Source: Alphaproteobacteria bacterium HGW-Alphaproteobacteria-18 (GTDB taxonomy: Bacteria; Pseudomonadota; Alphaproteobacteria; Caulobacterales; Hyphomonadaceae). From it: a stretch of DNA of 64,000 nt. Numbering within the stretch: the stretch's first letter is position 1; each line of letters opens with the position of its first letter. Below, piece after piece: positions 36,939-46,765 of this stretch. The position numbers and the translations under genes are program-made. The notes under the pieces were generated by a model that made no database searches, had not been told where the DNA came from, and was given only the letters and a program-made list of their open reading frames with translations. The DNA is taken from positions 124,001-188,000 of the forward strand of contig PHEH01000004.1 of NCBI GenBank assembly GCA_002841155.1. Reading direction: 5' to 3'.

Positions 36939-37490
36939 TCAGCTGAGGCGAATTGCGATCGCTTCAGCAGCTTCACGCGATGCGCGCCGAATCTCGGTTC
37001 TTGTCGCTCCGCTCCGCGCAAGACCATGCAGACCCAGCGCCGAAGCAAAAACAAAGTCTGCCAGACCGGCATCGCCGCGAGCAAGCTTCTTGAGCTTTCG
37101 CAACAACCGAGAGCGAGCCTGGAGGACAGTTTTCCTTACGTCCTCGTCCAGTTCGGACACGTTCAGCAAGGTTTCCGAGAAGAAGCAGCCTCGGTTCCCC
37201 TGCGTTGCGACAAAAGCGCCAACTGCCCGGATGAAATCGGGCAGCGCGCCGGAATCGGATCGTTCGAGCATTGTAAGGCGAGGCATCAATATCTGTTCGA
37301 GATATCTGCCAAATGCTTCGCTGAAAGCCCGCGGCTTGTCGTGGAAAGCCCGGTAGAAGCTACCGCGCAAGATCCCAGCAGACTCCTGCAGCTTGTCCAC
37401 GTCGGCGCCCGCATATCCGTGGGTCCAGAACACATCAACAAATGCGTCCAGTGCGATGTCTCGGTCGAAGTTGCGCGGTCTGCCTGCCAT
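36939..37490 (-). CDS. TetR-family regulator (1)
   Basis: 183 aa. N-terminal helix-turn-helix: FDRDIALDAFVDVFW then ADVDKLQESAGILRGSFYRAF (about 8-48). The C-terminal half fits the TetR ligand domain. A 9-bp inverted repeat (CTGCCATAC at 37484, GTATGGCAG at 37509) overlaps its start and may be an autoregulatory site. It lies beside two AhpD-like genes that share another operator, so its targets may be those. Confidence 0.87.
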   Translation of the reverse strand: MAGRPRNFDRDIALDAFVDVFWTHGYAGADVDKLQESAGILRGSFYRAFHDKPRAFSEAFGRYLEQILMPRLTMLERSDSGALPDFIRAVGAFVATQGNRGCFFSETLLNVSELDEDVRKTVLQARSRLLRKLKKLARGDAGLADFVFASALGLHGLARSGATRTEIRRASREAAEAIAIRLS

Positions 37491-37585
37491 ACAGGCTAAA
37501 TGTGTCCCGTATGGCAGTAAGGCAAGTGCCTACGCGCGTCGGGCGACAGGCCGCGCTTCTTCGCTCGCTTCACAAAGCCCTGACC

Positions 37586-38140
37586 TCAAGCTGGAACAGT
37601 CCACTCGAACTTTGCAAACGCCTCGTCTACGGGCGTACTTGCAAGATGGTTAGCGTAGTTGGACATGGTTTTCTGCGCCAGCCCGAGGAGAACATCGAGA
37701 ATGTGCCGCTGTGTGAAGCCTGCGCCGAGGAACTGCGCGACCTGGGCATCTTCAAGCCGGCCACGCTGGCGAACGAGCGCAAGCGTGAATTGCCGCAAGG
37801 CTTCCAGACGGGCATCCTTCAGGGCAGTTTCGGACCGGAGCGCGTCGACGATATCGGCATCGACGCCTTGCATCAGGGCGATGGCGGTATGGGCTGGCAC
37901 GCAATAATGGCAGGCATTCTCGACATTGATGGTCATCCAGACAACGTTGCGTTCAACCTTGCTGAGGCTGGAGCGCTCAAAGAGAGCATGCAGCATCTTG
38001 TATGCTTCGAGATGCTCCGGACTTTCTGCCATAACGGCATGAAGGTTCGGAATTCGGCCGAACGCCTTAGCAGAATTCTCAAGCAGCGGCCTGGAAGCCT
38101 CCGGTGCGGTGTTGATATCGTGGATTTTAAAACTGGACAT
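37586..38140 (-). CDS. AhpD/carboxymuconolactone decarboxylase-family protein (2)
   Basis: 184 aa. CHYCVPAH gives Cys77, Cys80 and His84. Strong AGGAGA site before the ATG. It resembles the protein at 53757 in layout (N-terminal helix PLLENSAKAFGRIPNLHAVM) more than the gene at 38187. An operator lies 44 bp upstream. Confidence 0.88.
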   Translation of the reverse strand: MSSFKIHDINTAPEASRPLLENSAKAFGRIPNLHAVMAESPEHLEAYKMLHALFERSSLSKVERNVVWMTINVENACHYCVPAHTAIALMQGVDADIVDALRSETALKDARLEALRQFTLALVRQRGRLEDAQVAQFLGAGFTQRHILDVLLGLAQKTMSNYANHLASTPVDEAFAKFEWTVPA

Positions 38141-38173
38141 GGCTTTCTCCTGGAGTGGAGAGGGCGAAGTGGG

Positions 38174-38197
38174 TATTGTTTACTGACTAGTCAATAA
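38174..38197. promoter_or_regulatory. TTGTTTACTG-type operator, site I
   Basis: TATTGTTTACTG then ACTAGTCAATAA; TGACTAGTCA (38184-38193) is a perfect palindrome. It precedes the AhpD-like gene (2) and overlaps the stop of the next gene. Matches sites II and III. Confidence 0.65.
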
Positions 38198-38780
38198 TTG
38201 GCCTGGCAGATTCTTGTTTGTCCGCTATCAACCCCTCACGCCTGCCCCAGTCGGCGTACCCGCCGCGCCGGCGTTGCTCGAGAGCTGCCGCATCCGGCTT
38301 TTCATACTCAGCACCCGGAACGATTCCCGTGGCCTGAACAAGACGGTTCATGAACGCATAAAGCGAGACCACCATAACGGCGTCATAGACGGCCGACTCG
38401 CTCCATCCTGAAGCAAGCAGCGCCTGTGTATCGCTTCGTACGACGCGTTCCGGCTCAAGTGTCAATTTCCGGGAAAATCTCAGCAACTCGGCCAGTTCCG
38501 GGCGAACTGGCGCAGTGTCCAGATCTGCGAACAAAGCGTCGATCAGGTCCATGCTGACACCGAAAGCCTCAGCCATGACCCGGTGGGCACCGAAGCAGAA
38601 ACGGCATTGATTGAGCCCGGATACCCAGGCCGCAATCAATTCCCGGTCGGCGACGGAAAGCTCGCTGTCTCGCCGGAGCACATCGTCATGCAAGTGCAGA
38701 AGGGGCGTAACCCCTCGCGGAAAGCGGCGAAAGACATCCCTGAGGTGGGCGCCTTCACTGAGAGAGGCGAAGTTTGGCAT
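38187..38780 (-). CDS. AhpD/peroxidase-related protein (3)
   Basis: 197 aa from Met 38780, chosen because GGAG lies 9 bp upstream and the longer frame to 38855 lacks one. CRFCFGAH provides Cys59, Cys62 and His66. Layout is of the uncharacterised peroxidase-related group. Divergent from the bufferin operon, with site II between. Confidence 0.85.
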
Positions 38781-38893
38781 GATGTGTCTCCGATTCGGGC
38801 CCGCATTTGATGAATTAACGCCGTTGAAGCTGACATTGCTGAAGCTGACATTCATTCACGCCGCCGGTCGATCGTTCAAGAGTCGGAATCAGT

Positions 38894-38918
38894 GTATTGT
38901 TGACTGCACAGTCACTAA
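38894..38918. promoter_or_regulatory. TTGTTGACTG-type operator, site II
   Basis: TATTGTTGACTG then CACAGTCACTAA; TGACTG/CAGTCA form a palindrome at 38901-38914. Lies between AhpD-like (3) and bufA, so it could control both. 19 of 24 bases match site I. Confidence 0.65.
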
Positions 38919-39042
38919 TCGCGGGTTCGTGAACGCTGAGCACGGGTTCGTGAGTTTTGAAACCGCAGCGCAAAAGCTAGGCAGAAGGTGTTCCGCATCA
39001 AACCACGCGGGACCTAAAGAGCAACTCCCAGAGGAAACCCTC

Positions 39043-39417
39043 ATGTCCCAGAACTCCATCATCGCCAAATCGATCCTGGCCGGCTTCACGCTTGCCGCTG
39101 CCGCAAGCGGCGCAGCCTATGCCAAACCGAACACGCAGCTGACGCTCGCGCCGAATGCACCTGCCGAAATCCAGGCCGACTTTGCTTCCTGGCAAGGCGG
39201 AGAACGCCTCTCGGGCCGCAAGGACAAGTGTTACGGTATTGCTCTGGCCGGCGAAAACGACTGCAAGGCTGGCAAGGGCACGAGCTGCGAAGGCACTTCG
39301 ACGGTCGACTTCCAGGGCAATGCCTGGACTTACGCCCCGAAGGGCGCTTGCGAGTTCATTCAGACACCTGCCGGCCCGGCTTCGCTTGGCGAACTTGATC
39401 GCGCAAACCCGGCCTGA
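39043..39417 (+). CDS. bufA: Bufferin-type precursor peptide (DUF2282)
   Basis: 124 aa. Signal peptide to about residue 27 (GAAYA). The DUF2282 core reads [14 protein letters not shown] and contains four Cys: 63, 74, 82 and 103. In Caulobacter, bufferins of this type are exported ribosomal peptides whose Cys are converted by the partner MNIO enzyme into copper-binding heterocycles. This one has an unusual C-tail of 21 residues after the last Cys and no His-rich run. AGAGGAA ribosome site. First gene of the operon; 27 bp to bufB. Confidence 0.88.
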
Positions 39418-39444
39418 TCAATCCAGGATCCTCGGACCACGGCA

Positions 39445-40302
39445 ATGCCCCCCGCACCGTCCCTTCCCCTCCACGCAGGTCTTGGCCTGAAACCCGATCA
39501 CTACCGGGCAGCGCTTGAGACCGGATGCGACGGGCTGTGGTTCGAGGTACATCCTGAAAACTACATGGTAGATGGCGGCCCGCGGCTTGCCTGGCTGGAA
39601 GCCCTGCGCGCCAACCGCGCTCTCAGCTTTCATGGTGTCGGCGCCTCGCTTGGCGGTCTGGACCCGTTCAACCTGGATCACCTTTCCCGGCTGAAGCAGC
39701 TCATCGGCCGCTATGAACCTGAACAGATTTCCGAACACGCAACCTTCTCCGCGCATGAAGGCAGGTATCACGCCGACCTGCTGCCGCTCCCGCGAACGCA
39801 TGAAGCGTTGAGCCATCTCTCTGACCGGATTGACATGTTCCAGTCATCCCTCGGCCGGAGAATCCTGATCGAGAACCCCACGAACTATCTCCCCTTCACC
39901 AGCGAACTTGATGAACCGGACTTCCTTGTCACCGTCGCCCGGACGTCGGGCTGCGGACTGTTGATGGATCTCAACAATATCTGGATCAGCGCGGCAAACG
40001 TCGGCGTGGATCCGTATGCCTACGTTCGCGCCATACCGGGCGAACTGGTCGGAGAAATCCACGTTGCCGGCCATTCGCCCGATCCTGTCCTTGGCGGCAG
40101 GTTCCTGATCGACAGCCACGACGAACCGGTGAGCGGCGGCGTCTGGCACCTTCTAAAGTTCGCCCTCGAACGCTGGGGCCCAAAGCCCGTTCTCATAGAA
40201 CGAGACGCTAAAATTCCGCCGTTTGAAGACCTGATGAGTGAAAGAAGCCGCGCCGAGACCCTGATCTTGCGGCAGAAACAAATGGCGCATGACGCCGCTT
40301 GA
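39445..40302 (+). CDS. bufB: MNIO-family peptide-modifying oxidase (DUF692)
   Basis: 285 aa. TIM-barrel with the MNIO metal motifs: WFEVHPENYM near residue 32, LSFHGVGASLGG near 52, SEHATFSA, IENPTNYLP near 143, LLMDLNNIW near 171, EIHVAGHS near 195 and DSHDEPV. Members bind two or three Fe and oxidise Cys in the precursor to thiooxazole-like groups. Overlaps bufC by 14 bp, so tightly coupled. Acts on the bufA product before export. Confidence 0.92.
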   Translation: MPPAPSLPLHAGLGLKPDHYRAALETGCDGLWFEVHPENYMVDGGPRLAWLEALRANRALSFHGVGASLGGLDPFNLDHLSRLKQLIGRYEPEQISEHATFSAHEGRYHADLLPLPRTHEALSHLSDRIDMFQSSLGRRILIENPTNYLPFTSELDEPDFLVTVARTSGCGLLMDLNNIWISAANVGVDPYAYVRAIPGELVGEIHVAGHSPDPVLGGRFLIDSHDEPVSGGVWHLLKFALERWGPKPVLIERDAKIPPFEDLMSERSRAETLILRQKQMAHDAA

Positions 40303-41077
40303 GCAGCATATCTTCCTCCTTTCGGGACTGGCGAGCCGCGGCGCGCAGCCGGCCGATCTGGCCTGGCTGATGGTCGGTCGACGGGAGCCTGGCCAGCGCG
40401 CGCTTGTCTATCGCAATTCCGGTATAGCCGCCTGCACCGATGCACTCAGGTCAAACTATCAGCGGCTCGCGAGGGTCGTGGGCGATACGTTCTTTCGCGG
40501 CCTTGCACATGCGTATATCGACCAGCACCCACCCGTTCAGCACAGCCTGGTCGGTTACGGACACGCGTTACCAGATTTCATCGATGAAGCCGCCAACAAG
40601 CACGGGCTATCCTGGCTGGGCGACTTTGCCCGCCTGGAAAGAGGATGGCTAAGGGCACACCTCGCAGCCGACCGTGCATTGCTCGCTCCGACCGCGTTGG
40701 AAAGTCTCGGTGACGAGGCACTGATCTCGGCACGGATCAGTTTCCATCCGAGCACTACGCTGGTGAAAACCCGGTGGCGGCTTTGGGAGCTTTGGCAAGA
40801 GGCCGGCGAGGAAGGCTTCAGCGAGGCGGCAAGAACACTGCTCCAGCAAGATGACGCTGTCCTTTTCTGGCGGCCTGGACACGAGGTCAGCGCGCGGCAA
40901 CTCCCTGTGTCCAATACAGCGTTTATTGAATCGTTGCGAAACGGCGACTCGCTTGGAACGGCGTGCGCGCGCGTACTTGCTCTTGCACCTGGCGAGAACC
41001 TTCCTGGCCTGATTGCCGGGGTTCTGGCGGCCGGCTTCATAACTGACATCAACACGGAAACGGGGGACTCCCAGTGA
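40289..41077 (+). CDS. bufC: MNIO partner protein (DUF2063)
   Basis: 262 aa. The DUF2063 N-domain covers about residues 3-95 (LEQHIFLLSGL, LVYRNSGIAACTDALRSNYQ, YIDQHPPV). The rest is a less conserved helical region. In bufferin systems this partner recognises the precursor and positions it in the MNIO enzyme. Overlaps the next gene by 4 bp (GTGA). Confidence 0.9.
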   Translation: MTPLEQHIFLLSGLASRGAQPADLAWLMVGRREPGQRALVYRNSGIAACTDALRSNYQRLARVVGDTFFRGLAHAYIDQHPPVQHSLVGYGHALPDFIDEAANKHGLSWLGDFARLERGWLRAHLAADRALLAPTALESLGDEALISARISFHPSTTLVKTRWRLWELWQEAGEEGFSEAARTLLQQDDAVLFWRPGHEVSARQLPVSNTAFIESLRNGDSLGTACARVLALAPGENLPGLIAGVLAAGFITDINTETGDSQ

Positions 41078-41610
41078 CACTTCTTGATCGCGCTCGCACC
41101 TTGTATTCATGGCTTGCTTCGAAGGCTGACCTTGCTGAACCGGCAGCCCTTCTCCTCGCGCGTCTTGCAGTCGCGCGGGTTTTCTTCATGTCCGGCCTGA
41201 CAAAATGGAACGGGTTCCTGTCGTTCAACCCGGACAAGTATGATCTGTTCCTCTACGAATTCTTCTGCCCCGAAGAGACTAGGCCCGGCGCCCTCGTCCT
41301 TTGCACCGACCAGGCGGAAGGCACCTATGCACCGGCAACCCAGTGGATCGTCGAGCGGTTTGCAAACATGGCGGGGATCATGGAGATCCTTTTGCCTATC
41401 CTGCTGGTATTCGGGCTCACGTCACGCCTTGCTGCGGCCGGCCTTCTGGCAATGACGTTGGTCATCGAGCGTCTTGTGTTTCCGGACGCTGACAGCTGGT
41501 GGGGCAGCCATGTGTGGTGGGCGGCCATCCTGTTTGTTCTCGTGGCCCGCGGCCCCGGCACCTGGTCGCTTGATCGACTGCTCGGTCTAGACGGCGCCCG
41601 GAAGGCCTGA
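41074..41610 (+). CDS. bufD: DoxX-family membrane protein of the bufferin operon
   Basis: 178 aa, four helices, GTG start with GGGGGA upstream. FMSGLTKWNGFLSF and LLARLAVARVFF are DoxX features. Such proteins accompany bufferin modules and are thought to take part in redox or membrane steps; its exact role is not known. Ends 3 bp before the next start. Confidence 0.87.
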   Translation: MTLLDRARTLYSWLASKADLAEPAALLLARLAVARVFFMSGLTKWNGFLSFNPDKYDLFLYEFFCPEETRPGALVLCTDQAEGTYAPATQWIVERFANMAGIMEILLPILLVFGLTSRLAAAGLLAMTLVIERLVFPDADSWWGSHVWWAAILFVLVARGPGTWSLDRLLGLDGARKA

Positions 41611-41613
41611 TCG

Positions 41614-43269
41614 ATGCCAGGGGGCCCATTCAGGATCAGCTTCAGACACTTCTGGTACGGGTGCGGGGCGCTGGGCATCGGTGCGGTTCTGGCTCTTGTG
41701 CTGAGTTCTGGCTGGCTAGGACTGCGCCTCTTCCAGCTTGAATGGGCGCCTCAGGGCGAGACGGAACTCACATTCGAGCCGGTTGCGCTTGACTTCCAGA
41801 ACCGCACCGACCTGACCGAAAAAACCGGATCGCTGCCCTTCATGGCAGGGATCGTCATTGATCTGGATGCGGACGGCCGGGACGAGATCGTGCTTGGCGC
41901 CGGACGCGGCCAGGCAGACGGCGTCTTCGCGCTGGCCCCCGAGTTCAAGTCAATGACAGACCTGTCCGCGAGCCATGCGCTCGACAAGGGTGCGGACGAT
42001 GCAACAATGGGGGGCACCTCGACAGACATTGATTCCGATGGATTGCCGGACCTGTTGCTCGCGCGCGAAAGCGGCGTCTGGTTGTTCCGCAATTCCGGGG
42101 GCTCATTCTCCCGAGGAGAGCGTGTTTTTGTTCCGCCCGATAGTGACCGTACGACCATCATTTCAATAAGCCCCGGAGATATCAACGGTGACGGACACGC
42201 GGATCTCTATCTGTCGGGGTATATCCACAATAGCGACGTCGAAGGCCAAACTATCTTCACGCGGGCTTACGGAGGATATGCCTATCTCCTGATCGGTGAC
42301 GGCAAGGGTGCCTTTGCGGATGCGACATCGGAATGGGGCCTGCGCCGCCAGCACAACACATTTACGGCCGTGTTCGCGGATATTGACCGAGACGGCCTTG
42401 CCGACCTCGTCGCCGCGCAGGATACGGGCGTCGTCGAAACCTGGCGTAACGCAGGTGCCCCGCCGCTTGAATCGATCGCAAATCCATCCGTGTATTCCTA
42501 TCCGATGGGCATCGCGGCCGGCGACTACAACAATGACGGCCATCTCGACTTCTATTTTTCGAATGTCGGCCACACCCTGCCGGAAGTGCTGGTGAGAGGT
42601 GACCTGCCCGGATCGGCCAGGTTCAATCCCGCTTACATGCTGTTTGCCGGAGATGGCGAAGGCGGGTTTGAGGATGTCGCCGCGAGCATGAAGGCAGCGC
42701 GGCTCGGCTTCGGTTGGGGCGCCGTTACCGCAGACTTCAACCTGGATGGGCTGGAAGATATTGCCATCGCCCAGAACTATGCAAAGTTCGGCCAGCCCGC
42801 CCTCATTCATCGCTATGCCGGCAAGCTGCTGCTCAATATCGCGGGCAATCACTTTGTGCCCGTCGAGAAGCGCGCCGGCGTCGCCAATCGGCTATTCGCG
42901 ATCACGCCGCTTGCGGCCGATCTGGACGCGGATGGCCGGCCCGATCTTGTCTGGGTAAACCTGAACGGCCCCGCCCGCGTTTTCCTGAACCGTCTGCCGG
43001 ACGCCAGAAGCGTGACGTTGCGCTTTGACGATTCCCCCTCCGCCTATGGCGCGGTGATCGAAGCCGGCGTCTCGGGTCGTCAGATTGTTCGCCAGGTTGT
43101 TCCGGGACAAGGGCTTGCGTCGGACAGTTCCGCAAACCTGATCATCGGTCTGGGTGAGGCGCGTCAGATCGATGGCCTGCGTGTGACCTTTTCCGACGGG
43201 CGTGTGCAGTCCTTCGACACGGTGACTGCCGGACAGGTTCTCGATCTTCGCAGGGATATCGGCCCGTGA
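41614..43269 (+). CDS. FG-GAP/VCBS repeat protein with ASPIC/UnbV C-domain (CRTAC1-like)
   Basis: 551 aa. One N-terminal membrane anchor (about 10-35) then a beta-propeller with at least seven calcium loops of the form DxDxDGxxD (DLDADGRDE, DIDSDGLPD, DINGDGHAD, DIDRDGLAD, DYNNDGHLD, DFNLDGLED, DLDADGRPD). The last 80 residues form the UnbV/ASPIC domain. Exported and Ca-binding; function unknown. Membership in a bufferin operon is unusual. Overlaps the next gene by GTGA. Confidence 0.88.
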   Translation: MPGGPFRISFRHFWYGCGALGIGAVLALVLSSGWLGLRLFQLEWAPQGETELTFEPVALDFQNRTDLTEKTGSLPFMAGIVIDLDADGRDEIVLGAGRGQADGVFALAPEFKSMTDLSASHALDKGADDATMGGTSTDIDSDGLPDLLLARESGVWLFRNSGGSFSRGERVFVPPDSDRTTIISISPGDINGDGHADLYLSGYIHNSDVEGQTIFTRAYGGYAYLLIGDGKGAFADATSEWGLRRQHNTFTAVFADIDRDGLADLVAAQDTGVVETWRNAGAPPLESIANPSVYSYPMGIAAGDYNNDGHLDFYFSNVGHTLPEVLVRGDLPGSARFNPAYMLFAGDGEGGFEDVAASMKAARLGFGWGAVTADFNLDGLEDIAIAQNYAKFGQPALIHRYAGKLLLNIAGNHFVPVEKRAGVANRLFAITPLAADLDADGRPDLVWVNLNGPARVFLNRLPDARSVTLRFDDSPSAYGAVIEAGVSGRQIVRQVVPGQGLASDSSANLIIGLGEARQIDGLRVTFSDGRVQSFDTVTAGQVLDLRRDIGP

Positions 43270-43931
43270 CGCCGGCGCAGCAAACACCAGACCCGCTCTA
43301 CGGCTACGCCTTTGCCGGGCTCGCCGGCGCCTTGTTGACAGGCCTCGGAGAGGGCCTGCTCCAGCTCGCGCCGGGCAGCAACTATGCCGATCCACATTAC
43401 GCCTACTTTGGGCAGGTCCCGGAAGCGCGCCTGTTTCTAGGACATTTCATCAGCATAGCGAGTGCGCCTCTGTACATTGCCGGATACTGGCATCTTACGG
43501 CCAACCTGTTGCCGGACCATCGCCGCGCCCGTCTCATCGTCTTTGCAGCGTGCGCCTATGCGTTCATCATTGGAACGGTCTGGATCGGGCAGCGTGCCTT
43601 CCTGGGAATGACCGTACAGGCAATCGATGCCGGGCGCGCCGACGCAATCCTGCTCGCCGGTTTTTCTGCGCTGAACGAGCCGCTCGTCAATGTCCTCCGG
43701 ATTGCGCTCGTCGGCTTCTCGGTCCTCTGGATACTGAGGATTTCATCGGGCAACTCCCGATATCCCCGCTGGATGGCCTTGCTGAGCCCGGCGGTCCTCA
43801 TTGCCGCGATCTTTGCGGCTTACAGCCTGTGGCCGGAGCCGGCATCATTTATCCTACCGACAGCGCTGAATACGGCGCACGTTCTTGTCTTCTCCGCATC
43901 TCTTTATTCACTTCGCTTCGGGGCTCGCTGA
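43266..43931 (+). CDS. Integral membrane protein, 221 aa, bufferin operon
   Basis: GTG start inside the previous stop. About six helices (for example LYIAGYWHLTANL, AACAYAFIIGTVWIG). No family recognised with certainty. The acidic/aromatic loop SNYADPHYAYFGQ near residue 38 is the only polar motif. Possibly a small-molecule or electron-transfer membrane subunit. Confidence 0.75.
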   Translation: MTPAQQTPDPLYGYAFAGLAGALLTGLGEGLLQLAPGSNYADPHYAYFGQVPEARLFLGHFISIASAPLYIAGYWHLTANLLPDHRRARLIVFAACAYAFIIGTVWIGQRAFLGMTVQAIDAGRADAILLAGFSALNEPLVNVLRIALVGFSVLWILRISSGNSRYPRWMALLSPAVLIAAIFAAYSLWPEPASFILPTALNTAHVLVFSASLYSLRFGAR

Positions 43932-44308
43932 TGAACCGACTCTTGTTGATGGGCGCACTGGCTATAGCAGGCTTTCTGGCCACGCTTTCATGGGCTGTCG
44001 CCCCGCTCGGCGAGGCGGCCGTCTGCCCTCCCCTCGGGTCGGTCCCCGCATGTGCTTTCGCTCTCGGGGGATATGCGGCGATGTTTTCCTCGACGCTGCT
44101 TACGGGCTGGCGTGCGTCCGCTGTGTTTCTGTCCGGCTGGATCATAACGCTCAGCCTTTCGGTGTCCGGCGCGTTGGCTGGCGCGCTTGGGGGAACGCCG
44201 GCAGTCGCCCTGCTCCTCGCCGGCCTGATGTCCACGATCACCGCCGGGCTGCTGGGCGTGATCTGGGTCAGACCTTATCTGTGCCAACCTCTCTGGAGCC
44301 GCCGATGA
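43931..44308 (+). CDS. Small membrane protein, 125 aa, bufferin operon
   Basis: Four helices, with a pair of Cys in the periplasmic loop (residues near 33 and 43: AVCPPLGSVPACAF) and another Cys near the C-terminus. Start overlaps the previous stop by one base (TGATG). Family not recognised. Confidence 0.72.
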   Translation: MNRLLLMGALAIAGFLATLSWAVAPLGEAAVCPPLGSVPACAFALGGYAAMFSSTLLTGWRASAVFLSGWIITLSLSVSGALAGALGGTPAVALLLAGLMSTITAGLLGVIWVRPYLCQPLWSRR

Positions 44309-45549
44309 AGTACGCCGTTGCCGCCGCCGCAACGCTTTTGATGGGTGGCTGCGCCAGCAGCTATCCGGCAGGCAGCGCGCCATCCGGGTGGGCCCGGTAC
44401 AGCCAGATGCCAGCAGACACTGCAGAAATGATGACCGGCGAAATCCTGTTTGTCACAGACCGGGCACCTCGCGGCGGCGGATATGGCGTTGAGCGATCGA
44501 CATCCATGGCGGCTGGGAAGGCCCGCATCGAGGTCAAAGGGATAGACGCGCCGGCCTATGGCGCCTTCATGTCCGGCGAGAGCGACCAGCGTCCCGCTTA
44601 CTCAGCTGACTCGATTAGTGAAATCGTCCGCTTCCCTGGCACGCCGCTCGCTTTTTCGATCGAGAATGGCGTGCTTACACGTGAGCGCCCGTCCCTAGCC
44701 CGGTACCAGGAAGCCGGCAAGGCATTTCAGGGAATGCTCTCTGAGGCGGTCGCCAGCCAGGATACCGGAAACGTGCTGCTCTACGTGCATGGCTTCAACA
44801 ACACATTCGACCATGGCGCTTTCAATCTTTTCGAAGTCTGGAATGCCTCCGGGCGCGCCTCAGTGCCGGTCTTGTTCAGCTGGCCAACGGGCGGACGTTC
44901 AGTATGGGGTTATCTTGGCGACACCCAGGATGGGGATTTTGCGATCTTCCACCTGAAAGAAGTGATCCGCCTGATCAGCGCGGCGCCGGAAGTCGATTCT
45001 GTCACGATCCTCGCGCACAGCCGGGGCGTATCGCTGGTAACAGACGCACTCCGGGAGCTGATGATTGAAGCACGCGGGTCAGGCCTGTCGATGCGCGACA
45101 CGTACCGGGTCGAAAACCTGATCCTTGCGGCGCCGGACATGGACCTTGGCGTAATGGAGCAGCGGCTGGTCGCCGAAGCTTTTGGCATGGGGTTCGGCCA
45201 GATCAACGTCTACGTAAATCCAGGAGACGACGCCCTTGGCCTGTCCGGCTGGGTCTTCGGCGCGCCTCGCTTCGGCGCCCTGACGGCCGAATCCATGTCG
45301 GAAGAATCCAAGGCTGTATTCCGGGGCGTCCGGTCCGTCTCCTTCATTTCCGTCACAGACGCTGACCGGTTCGATCCGCACAACTATTTCCGCCGCCATC
45401 CCGGCGTCCTGGCGGATATTGCCGCAACCATCCGGACCGGCGCGCATCCGGGCGATCCCGAGCGTCCCCTTGAAAAAGGTGAGTTGAACTTCTGGAGCAT
45501 CGACCAGCAGTATGTGCCCAGACTGCAACAACAACCGAAAGAGCCGTGA
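44305..45549 (+). CDS. Alpha/beta hydrolase lipoprotein (DUF900-like)
   Basis: 414 aa from ATG 44305; a longer frame from 43885 is rejected because it lies antisense to signal logic and inside other genes. Lipobox GGC at Cys16. DUF900 features: ILFVTDR near 48, LLYVHGFNNTFD near 157, FSWPTGG, nucleophile ILAHSRGVSLV near 233 and AAPDMDLGV. Esterase/lipase-like, anchored in the periplasm. Overlaps the previous gene by ATGA. Confidence 0.83.
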   Translation: MKYAVAAAATLLMGGCASSYPAGSAPSGWARYSQMPADTAEMMTGEILFVTDRAPRGGGYGVERSTSMAAGKARIEVKGIDAPAYGAFMSGESDQRPAYSADSISEIVRFPGTPLAFSIENGVLTRERPSLARYQEAGKAFQGMLSEAVASQDTGNVLLYVHGFNNTFDHGAFNLFEVWNASGRASVPVLFSWPTGGRSVWGYLGDTQDGDFAIFHLKEVIRLISAAPEVDSVTILAHSRGVSLVTDALRELMIEARGSGLSMRDTYRVENLILAAPDMDLGVMEQRLVAEAFGMGFGQINVYVNPGDDALGLSGWVFGAPRFGALTAESMSEESKAVFRGVRSVSFISVTDADRFDPHNYFRRHPGVLADIAATIRTGAHPGDPERPLEKGELNFWSIDQQYVPRLQQQPKEP

Positions 45550-45552
45550 GTC

Positions 45553-45744
45553 ATGCGCCCGATCCTGATCCGAGCGATCATCATTTCCCTGATCGTAGGC
45601 TCGCTCCTGACACTGATCAACCAGTTCGAGCGCGTTACCGCGCTTGAACTCCCAAACCTCTGGAAGATGGGCCTGAGCTATGTCGTGCCCTTCTGCGTTT
45701 CCCTGTTCAGCGCGCTGGCGGTCAAGGCGCCGCCGACGGATTAA
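45553..45744 (+). CDS. Small membrane protein, NrtS-like
   Basis: 63 aa, two helices: IIISLIVGSLLTLINQF and LSYVVPFCVSLFSAL. The pattern resembles the small NrtS nitrate/nitrite transporter family. Starts 3 bp after the hydrolase stop, so it closes the operon. Resemblance is by eye only. Confidence 0.6.
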   Translation: MRPILIRAIIISLIVGSLLTLINQFERVTALELPNLWKMGLSYVVPFCVSLFSALAVKAPPTD

Positions 45745-45746
45745 CC

Positions 45747-46190
45747 TCAGCTACCGGTCTGCGCCGCCCGAATGCGATCGGCTATACCGGCCTCTGTTTC
45801 CTTGTGCGTCACGAGATCGATCACAGCCTGGCTCTGGACATCGACCAGCAGGAGTTGGCCCGTCTTGATACCGCCTGCAAAATGGGTACGGATCGCTTGG
45901 CCAACACCGAGACGGTCTGCTTCAGCGAACACAGCCTCCTTGTCACGCTTTGTATAGTCGATCCGGACAAAGCTGACGCCGTCCCAGTCGCCTGACGTGG
46001 CAACAGCATCGAGTTTCGGGTCCAGCGCCCTGCAGTTGGGGCACCAGTCAGCATAGACGCGAACAGCAGCGATTTCGGACGATGCAACCGGACGGCTTGC
46101 TTCTCCGGCTGGCCGTTTTGTTTCAGCACAAGCGGCCAGCGGGGTAATCGCAACCAGCATTACAGCTGCGGCGGCAAACAGGGTTTTCAT
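45747..46190 (-). CDS. Thioredoxin-fold lipoprotein
   Basis: 147 aa. Lipobox PLAAC with Cys21, redox pair Cys50/Cys53 in YADWCPNCRALDP. Periplasmic thiol reductase or oxidase. Converges with the bufferin operon (2 bp apart) and faces a DoxX-like gene, with operator site III between them. Confidence 0.88.
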   Translation of the reverse strand: MKTLFAAAAVMLVAITPLAACAETKRPAGEASRPVASSEIAAVRVYADWCPNCRALDPKLDAVATSGDWDGVSFVRIDYTKRDKEAVFAEADRLGVGQAIRTHFAGGIKTGQLLLVDVQSQAVIDLVTHKETEAGIADRIRAAQTGS

Positions 46191-46309
46191 GATCTCGTCT
46201 CCTTTAGGGGTCGGCAGAAACTGCCGGTTGCTTAACCTGTCCCCTCGCTCCGCGGGACTGACATTTTCGTGATATCGCTTGCGTAACGGTCTGGCGAGCA
46301 GATATTCCG

Positions 46310-46326
46310 GACTAAGCAGTCAACAA
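46310..46326. promoter_or_regulatory. TTGTTGACTG-type operator, site III
   Basis: On the minus strand TTGTTGACTGCTTAGTC, matching the first 11 bases of site II exactly and sharing AGTC. It sits 17 bp before the DoxX-like start and 120 bp from the thioredoxin-like start. Confidence 0.55.
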
Positions 46327-46342
46327 ATGGATTCTTCCTCTC

Positions 46343-46765
46343 ATGCGCCCGATCCTTGTCACAGCGCCGCCCTTCATTCTTGCTGCGTTCCTTGTCTTTA
46401 TGGGGATTCAGAAGTTCGCTGGCGACGTACCGATCTTTTCCATCATCGAAGCCAATGTCAGCAACCAGACAGGCCTCACACTCGCATTCATCGAGCCTTT
46501 CGGGCGATACCTGACCGGAGCACTTGAGTTCCTCGCCGCCATCCTGCTTATCGCCAGACGCTTCTGGGGCGGCCTCCTCGCCACCCTGGTGTCTGCCGGG
46601 GCTGTGGCGGCCCATCTCACGTTCCTTGGCATATCCACCCCTGAATCCAGCACGCCCGGCGCCGCTGAAAGCCCGGTGCTCTTCTTCATGGCACTCGGCG
46701 CGCTCGCCCTGTCCGGGCTGGTAACCTACCTTGCGCGCCCCAGGCCTGCCCCGACCGAAGCCTGA
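46343..46765 (+). CDS. DoxX-like membrane protein (2)
   Basis: 140 aa, four helices; FLVFMGIQKFAGD and FIEPFGRYLTGALEFLAAILL are DoxX-like. Probably a small redox-associated membrane protein. Followed 7 bp later by another membrane gene. Confidence 0.78.
   Translation: MRPILVTAPPFILAAFLVFMGIQKFAGDVPIFSIIEANVSNQTGLTLAFIEPFGRYLTGALEFLAAILLIARRFWGGLLATLVSAGAVAAHLTFLGISTPESSTPGAAESPVLFFMALGALALSGLVTYLARPRPAPTEA

Follow-up and report, generated by a model that had tools for sequence, protein, structure and literature searches.

The window, a 64,000-nucleotide stretch of contig PHEH01000004.1 from Alphaproteobacteria bacterium HGW-Alphaproteobacteria-18, carries an extended bufferin operon in which nine genes on one strand fill positions 39043-45744, with intergenic junctions of -14 to +27 bp (Table 1). 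A first-pass annotation had read bufA (DUF2282), the MNIO gene bufB, bufC and doxX as the known copper-linked module for a ribosomally synthesised and post-translationally modified peptide, and this assignment holds, with all four products above their Pfam cut-offs and NF050167 passed. The tight junctions noted along the block (GTGA, TGATG, ATGA and 3 bp) agree with the recomputed coordinates, and the genes that follow the core match the families given for them, namely an FG-GAP/UnbV protein, two membrane proteins and a DUF900 hydrolase, with the second membrane protein, mp2, falling in no named family. The last gene had been called NrtS-like; its product does match the profile NF038050, but its score lies under the cut-off, which homologues in genomes G238 (28.8 bits) and G088 (26.8 bits) pass. 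A promoter and terminator scan of 38800-46400 returned 4 promoter-like sites, against 1.8 (standard deviation 1.3) in shuffles, and 14 terminator-like sites, against 6.6 (standard deviation 3.1); both counts exceed the shuffles, and 17 of the 18 sites fall within coding sequence.

Table 1. Features of the extended bufferin operon, its surroundings and related loci (scores in bits, with model cut-offs; L numbers are loci in other genomes)
Feature	Position	Strand	Junction to preceding gene (bp)	Description
bufA	39043..39417	+		Buf1 bufferin precursor; PF10048 (DUF2282) 77.1, cut-off 22.4
bufB	39445..40302	+	+27	MNIO bufferin maturase; NF050167 327.3, cut-off 310
bufC	40289..41077	+	-14 (overlap)	DUF2063 partner protein; PF09836 60, cut-off 27.2
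doxX	41074..41610	+	-4 (GTGA)	GTG start; DoxX 36.8, cut-off 23.6
unbV	41614..43269	+	+3	FG-GAP/UnbV (CRTAC1-like) propeller
mp1 (DUF6796)	43266..43931	+	-4 (GTGA)	multi-pass membrane protein; PF20599 45.7, cut-off 26.9
mp2	43931..44308	+	-1 (TGATG)	no named family; 125-residue four-helix membrane protein
hyd (DUF900)	44305..45549	+	-4 (ATGA)	alpha/beta-hydrolase; PF05990 141.5, cut-off 20.5
nrtS-like	45553..45744	+	+3	small membrane protein; NF038050 22.6, cut-off 25
thioredoxin-like gene	45747-46190			convergent to block; next gene after nrtS-like
DoxX subtype with Cys insert	window 41074-41610; L026-L031, L120, L121, L130, L197, L203, L206
direct repeat CGGGTTCGTGA-N10-CGGGTTCGTGA	38922..38953	+		upstream of bufA; candidate regulator site
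palindrome TGACTGCACAGTCA	38901-38914			between TetR/CMD genes and bufA (by eye)
TetR gene and two peroxidase-related CMD genes	36939-38855	-		divergent from bufA
small membrane-like protein between unbV and DUF6796	L088:3461-3910, L094:4192-4602, L097:8668-9075, L099:8705-9115

Judged by sequence comparison, this arrangement is real and conserved, but rare. The same block is present in Hyphomonas johnsonii, H. chukchiensis and two Hyphomonas metagenome-assembled genomes (MAGs), and a fragment of it in a MAG labelled Alphaproteobacteria bacterium (L035). Of 105 genomes in the window's family, 15 have DUF2282; those of the window's genus are its own genome (G000), G039, G041 (H. johnsonii), G050 and G057, all of which also carry UnbV at more than 1000 bits, the next match being G021 at 778. 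The order bufA-bufB-bufC-doxX-unbV-DUF6796-mp2-hyd is identical in these five genomes, the window's included, which amount to about four lineages because identities and gene lengths in the block coincide between G039 and G050. In every one of the four lineages, at least four of the block's seven junctions are overlaps. When the window is compared with G041 and G039 by tblastn, the eight genes are collinear, at 29-37% protein identity for mp2 and 44-84% for the other seven, and for UnbV, DUF6796 and hyd the order and overlaps are kept at 54-63% identity. Pairwise ratios of nonsynonymous to synonymous substitution rates (dN/dS) between the window and G057 are 0.31 for mp2 and 0.05-0.16 for the other eight genes. 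Among ten flanking genes of the window tested in H. johnsonii, just a TonB receptor was matched (29%, opposite orientation). The position of nrtS varies. It directly follows hyd in G057, whereas in G039 and G050 a GGDEF/EAL gene intervenes and nrtS lies about 2.1 kb away; around the H. johnsonii block, 16-20 kb of sequence showed no nrtS. The expected conservation of the extra genes beside bufferin modules is borne out by gene order within the genus, but it does not extend to the place of nrtS, and the full extension is present at 5 of 110 bufferin loci.

These 110 loci, scanned with profiles of the nine genes, comprise one or more for every DUF2282 genome (102 in all) among 398 genomes of the order, together with G050, five further genomes of family f4 and second loci of G091 and G111; further DUF2282 places of several genomes lie outside the set, and the stretches reach at most about 7 kb beyond bufA. 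Core genes alone were found at 101 loci (92 with a complete core and 9 partial, some at short contig ends), the full block at five, all Hyphomonas and one of them without nrtS, core plus hyd plus nrtS at one (G238), and core plus nrtS alone at three (G088, G340 and G151, in the last of which nrtS sits between bufA and bufB), so that an nrtS-like gene adjoins the bufferin core in the window and at seven other loci. Distant homologues could have been missed in these counts, because the profiles of the extension genes draw mainly on the window's own clade and its kin. Bufferins are described in the available text of PMC12452194 as a very large family of copper-binding peptides whose clusters consist of four core genes, and the MNIO cluster survey reported there mentions additional conserved genes in "extremely low proportions"; the main text of that paper is without the terms UnbV, FG-GAP, ASPIC, DUF900 and NrtS. 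In a search of the open-licence literature, no title or abstract among the matches listed tied the extension families to bufferins, DUF6796 was named in no paper, the one paper in which two of the subjects came together was unrelated, and the extended block appears to be described in none.

The core itself is, from its sequence features, an ordinary, canonical Buf1 bufferin module. BufA has a signal peptide (by eye) and four cysteines (Cys63, Cys74, Cys82 and Cys103) that are conserved in all nine aligned precursors. The 21-residue tail after the last Cys and the lack of a His-rich run, remarked on in the first-pass annotation, are confirmed, BufA having no His at all; in the same alignment three canonical precursors have tails of 16-17 residues. 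An unusual precursor is therefore rejected, as BufA is a four-Cys Buf1 whose tail exceeds those of these three by 4-5 residues. Its N-terminal stretch before the first Cys is also longer. Buf1 clusters are characterised by thiooxazole-modified, copper-chelating Cys residues. The window core resembles Buf1/captophorin clusters such as that of Caulobacter vibrioides, as far as these are set out in the available parts of PMC12452194 and PMC13097082, in its four-Cys signal-peptide precursor, MNIO maturase, DUF2063 partner and DoxX, whereas the block differs from them in its five further genes and in a DoxX subtype with a Cys-containing insert (CPEETRPGALVLC, from alignment and table). This insert, CPE[ED]xRxGALxLC or close to it, occurs at 13 of the 110 loci and is a possible copper or redox site. 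Against the HvfX maturation protein model NF050144, the window DoxX scores 36.2 bits, below the cut-off of 80.

The extension proteins are for the most part recognisable by family. UnbV carries FG-GAP repeats (FG-GAP_3, 131.8 bits against 26.9) and a C-terminal UnbV_ASPIC domain (PF07593, 50.3 against 23.4) like CRTAC1/ASPIC-UnbV proteins, and its profile finds Cartilage acidic protein 1 (9etn, E 4e-14) as the best solved structure; it differs in an N-terminal membrane anchor (by eye) and in the DUF6796 gene that adjoins its own. UnbV matches fall on 28 plasmid records, of which the 15 listed carry a CRTAC1 annotation or none, at 24-28% identity; the DUF6796 protein was found on no plasmids. 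The AlphaFold2 model of mp1 (predicted local distance difference test score, pLDDT, 93.7) gave no clear relative in a fold search. The hydrolase has a lipobox-like N-terminus with Cys16 (by eye), and Cys16, Ser239, Asp278 and His359 are invariant in seven of seven sequences, the last three of which would form the catalytic triad; its matches to solved structures were just short C-terminal ones to potassium-channel domains (best E 0.00046), judged to be chance. The last peptide is like the NrtS small nitrate/nitrite transporters in size as well as profile match, and differs from them in its score under the cut-off and its place beside a bufferin core.

For mp2, modelling suggests that the fold is probably VKOR-like. 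The modelled homologue from G041 has a four-helix fold whose nearest relative in a fold search is a Synechococcus VKOR, and 11 of 13 members have two loops that each carry a Cys pair, features that together recall the quinone-linked disulfide enzymes VKOR and DsbB. However, the loop spacings are CPx7C and CPx8C rather than CXXC, the conserved VKOR motif according to the available text of PMC4555120, so that the VKOR arrangement of an active-site CXXC plus a loop Cys pair is absent from mp2. Among the Pfam matches listed up to E 1, none of the 13 proteins has PF07884 (VKOR), which is also without a match in the window's own genome, and no solved structure is matched by sequence up to E 1. One of the 13 touches the NCBIfam DsbB model (E 0.16), and there are weak signs of internal duplication (hhalign probability 43%). 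The Cys loops may nonetheless be taken as hinting at envelope thiol chemistry beside copper sequestration. The sole PF07884 match in 61 genomes searched is at L111 (G052), where a VKOR domain follows an epimerase-like part (by eye); this domain, considered as a possible yardstick, found no solved VKOR.

The first-pass annotation supposed that the five extra genes form one larger system with the core, and this is not supported, as unbV-DUF6796(-mp2) is a separate set in other genera, with no bufferin gene in the stretches examined, hyd-nrtS joins the core without this trio in G238, and nrtS alone does so in three genomes. The DUF6796 profile (E 1e-10) matches 25 of the 398 genomes drawn from the order and 4 of 385 from the class, the window's own included. 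Around DUF6796 matches, plus L038, L041 and L054, 27 distinct stretches outside the genus of about 4-20 kb were examined (L087 and L088 repeat L039 and L040), and in 25 of them DUF6796 is accompanied by a complete or partial unbV (fragmentary in L091, cut in L108), while mp2 is present in nine, hyd in two and a bufferin gene in none. One of the two stretches without unbV, that of G211, has unbV-mp2 on another contig. The proposals that the extension is exclusive to bufferin neighbourhoods and that its five genes are a single inherited set are both rejected, the former on these separate occurrences and the latter on the other combinations in G238, G088, G340 and G151. In a UnbV tree of 27 rows, which does not include L091 and L108 (fragments) or L112, L113 and L117, the four UnbV proteins from the fused operon group as one clade (100/100) whose neighbour is G021 of the same family (99/98), and G021 has its unbV-DUF6796 pair and its bufABC-doxX on different contigs. 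G238, of another family, has bufABC-doxX-hyd-nrtS with 4-bp overlaps at doxX/hyd and hyd/nrtS, and also unbV-DUF6796-mp2-hyd on a separate contig; in the hyd tree (seven rows, unrooted, one long branch), a 100/100 branch divides Hyphomonas hyd and the G238 bufferin copy from two module copies. BufB of G238 and of G255 (families f4 and f5) falls inside the window's own clade (99/94) in a tree built from 81 of 104 rows (those labelled or scoring above 380 bits, without the near-copy L028), which suggests that the core was transferred between families; the G255 contig ends about 1.6 kb beyond bufA. As read from these trees and gene orders, the simplest history would be an insertion of unbV-DUF6796-mp2 into a bufABC-doxX-hyd-nrtS operon, between doxX and hyd, before these Hyphomonas diverged, the alternative being that the trio was lost elsewhere. 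Rather than one larger system, the block is better regarded as assembled from three or more parts. In some f4 genomes a different small membrane-like protein lies between unbV and DUF6796 (Table 1), and the one tested had no Pfam match.

In family f5, DUF2282 is found in 6 of 8 genomes with DUF6796 and in 9 of 54 without it (p 0.0017), in family f4 in 13 of 25 and 34 of 104 (p 0.06), and in genus g14 in 4 of 5 and 4 of 23 (p 0.015); f4 and f5 pooled give an odds ratio of 3.3 (p 0.002). The figures for the window's own family, 6 of 6 and 9 of 99, mostly reflect the linked operon itself, and DUF2282 is absent from all six g54 genomes that carry DUF6796. Among 165 genomes drawn, five have mp2, all with DUF6796 and DUF2282 as well, and three of these are Hyphomonas with the fused operon. 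From such counts the association of the trio with bufferins is moderate, and the trio also exists without bufferin.

These observations can be assembled into a model, tentative but the one preferred here, in which the block is a composite operon of a Buf1 core, an envelope trio and hyd/nrtS, with the extension acting on the envelope thiol side of copper stress. The gene arrangement in this model is read directly, and the mechanism we infer. BufB and BufC would modify the bufferin precursor, which may then be exported by Sec to bind excess periplasmic copper, while the extension would work in the envelope, where mp2, the Cys-insert DoxX and the propeller protein could constitute a membrane assembly that makes or repairs disulfides, or protects envelope thiols from copper; hyd would remodel the envelope. 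In Buf1 the first and last Cys are reported to stay joined by a disulfide. That the extension serves export, redox or metal handling, as first supposed, is put forward as a hypothesis. A bolder claim, that the CRTAC1-like propeller, DUF6796 and the twin-Cys-loop VKOR-fold protein are an undescribed envelope module functionally tied to bufferins in a combined copper-sequestration and envelope thiol-redox system, can point to unlinked co-occurrence in more than one family, the common DUF900 partner and the single fusion in Hyphomonas, and is rather unlikely. The window mp2 keeps the first Cys pair (CPPLGSVPAC) without the second, so that it may have become a structural subunit there. Order-wide co-occurrence (DUF2282 in 19 of 25 genomes with DUF6796 and 83 of 373 without it, p 7e-8), considered as proof of function, is inflated by shared descent and weakened by the within-family tests in f5 and f4. 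A lineage with a second, otherwise independent gene set inside its bufferin operon offers a handle on events downstream of copper capture, on the role of DoxX in them and on three poorly known membrane or envelope families, DUF6796, mp2 and DUF900.

It is quite possible, instead, that the genes share a stress regulon, a general envelope trio having gained copper-responsive expression behind the bufferin promoter, with a common transcript and separate pathways. The stand-alone occurrence of the trio, its confinement as a fusion to one clade and the recurrence, outside the operon, of the divergent CMD and TetR genes in G057 and G039 would all be consistent with this explanation, but the persistence of order and overlaps in diverged UnbV, DUF6796 and hyd, the DUF900 genes that accompany both systems and the positive co-occurrence even when unlinked argue against it. 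Surface display or anchoring is distinctly unlikely. Under that explanation the UnbV propeller and the hydrolase would anchor, process or release the mature bufferin or some other envelope polymer, while DUF6796 and mp2 would provide a platform in the membrane. In its favour the UnbV profile matches to CRTAC1 and to integrin alpha-6 (7ceb, E 0.0057) and the lipobox-like N-terminus and conserved Ser, Asp and His of hyd could be cited; however, none of the nine block genes matches a secretion channel or sortase in Pfam or NCBIfam, and loci of G021 and G088 have the same precursor type without unbV, DUF6796, mp2 and hyd. Neutral or selfish clustering, in which genes co-travel by horizontal transfer and their products lack a joint function, would accord with the patchy distribution and the core transfer suggested for G238 and G255, but is very unlikely given dN/dS well under 1 in all nine genes and overlaps so widely kept in each lineage.

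The direct repeat upstream of bufA (Table 1) recurs at that place in G057 and, diverged, in G021; the scan, which covered the window and the loci other than L134-L213, gave five further matches, all weak and scattered. The divergent TetR and CMD genes are kept in G057 and G039 and were not found at H. johnsonii. No obvious copper genes were seen elsewhere in the window in an open reading frame listing read by eye, which is not a profile search. In G057, the closest relative, a CopA-like copper P-type ATPase lies about 3 kb upstream of bufA (L030:2-913), of which the C-terminal 303 residues only are included at the stretch edge. Finally, in G238 (L095:2316-6299) the stand-alone unbV set is preceded by a TonB-dependent receptor, a PepSY_TM protein and a small protein, the last of which resembles, by eye, that at 46343-46765 of the window.

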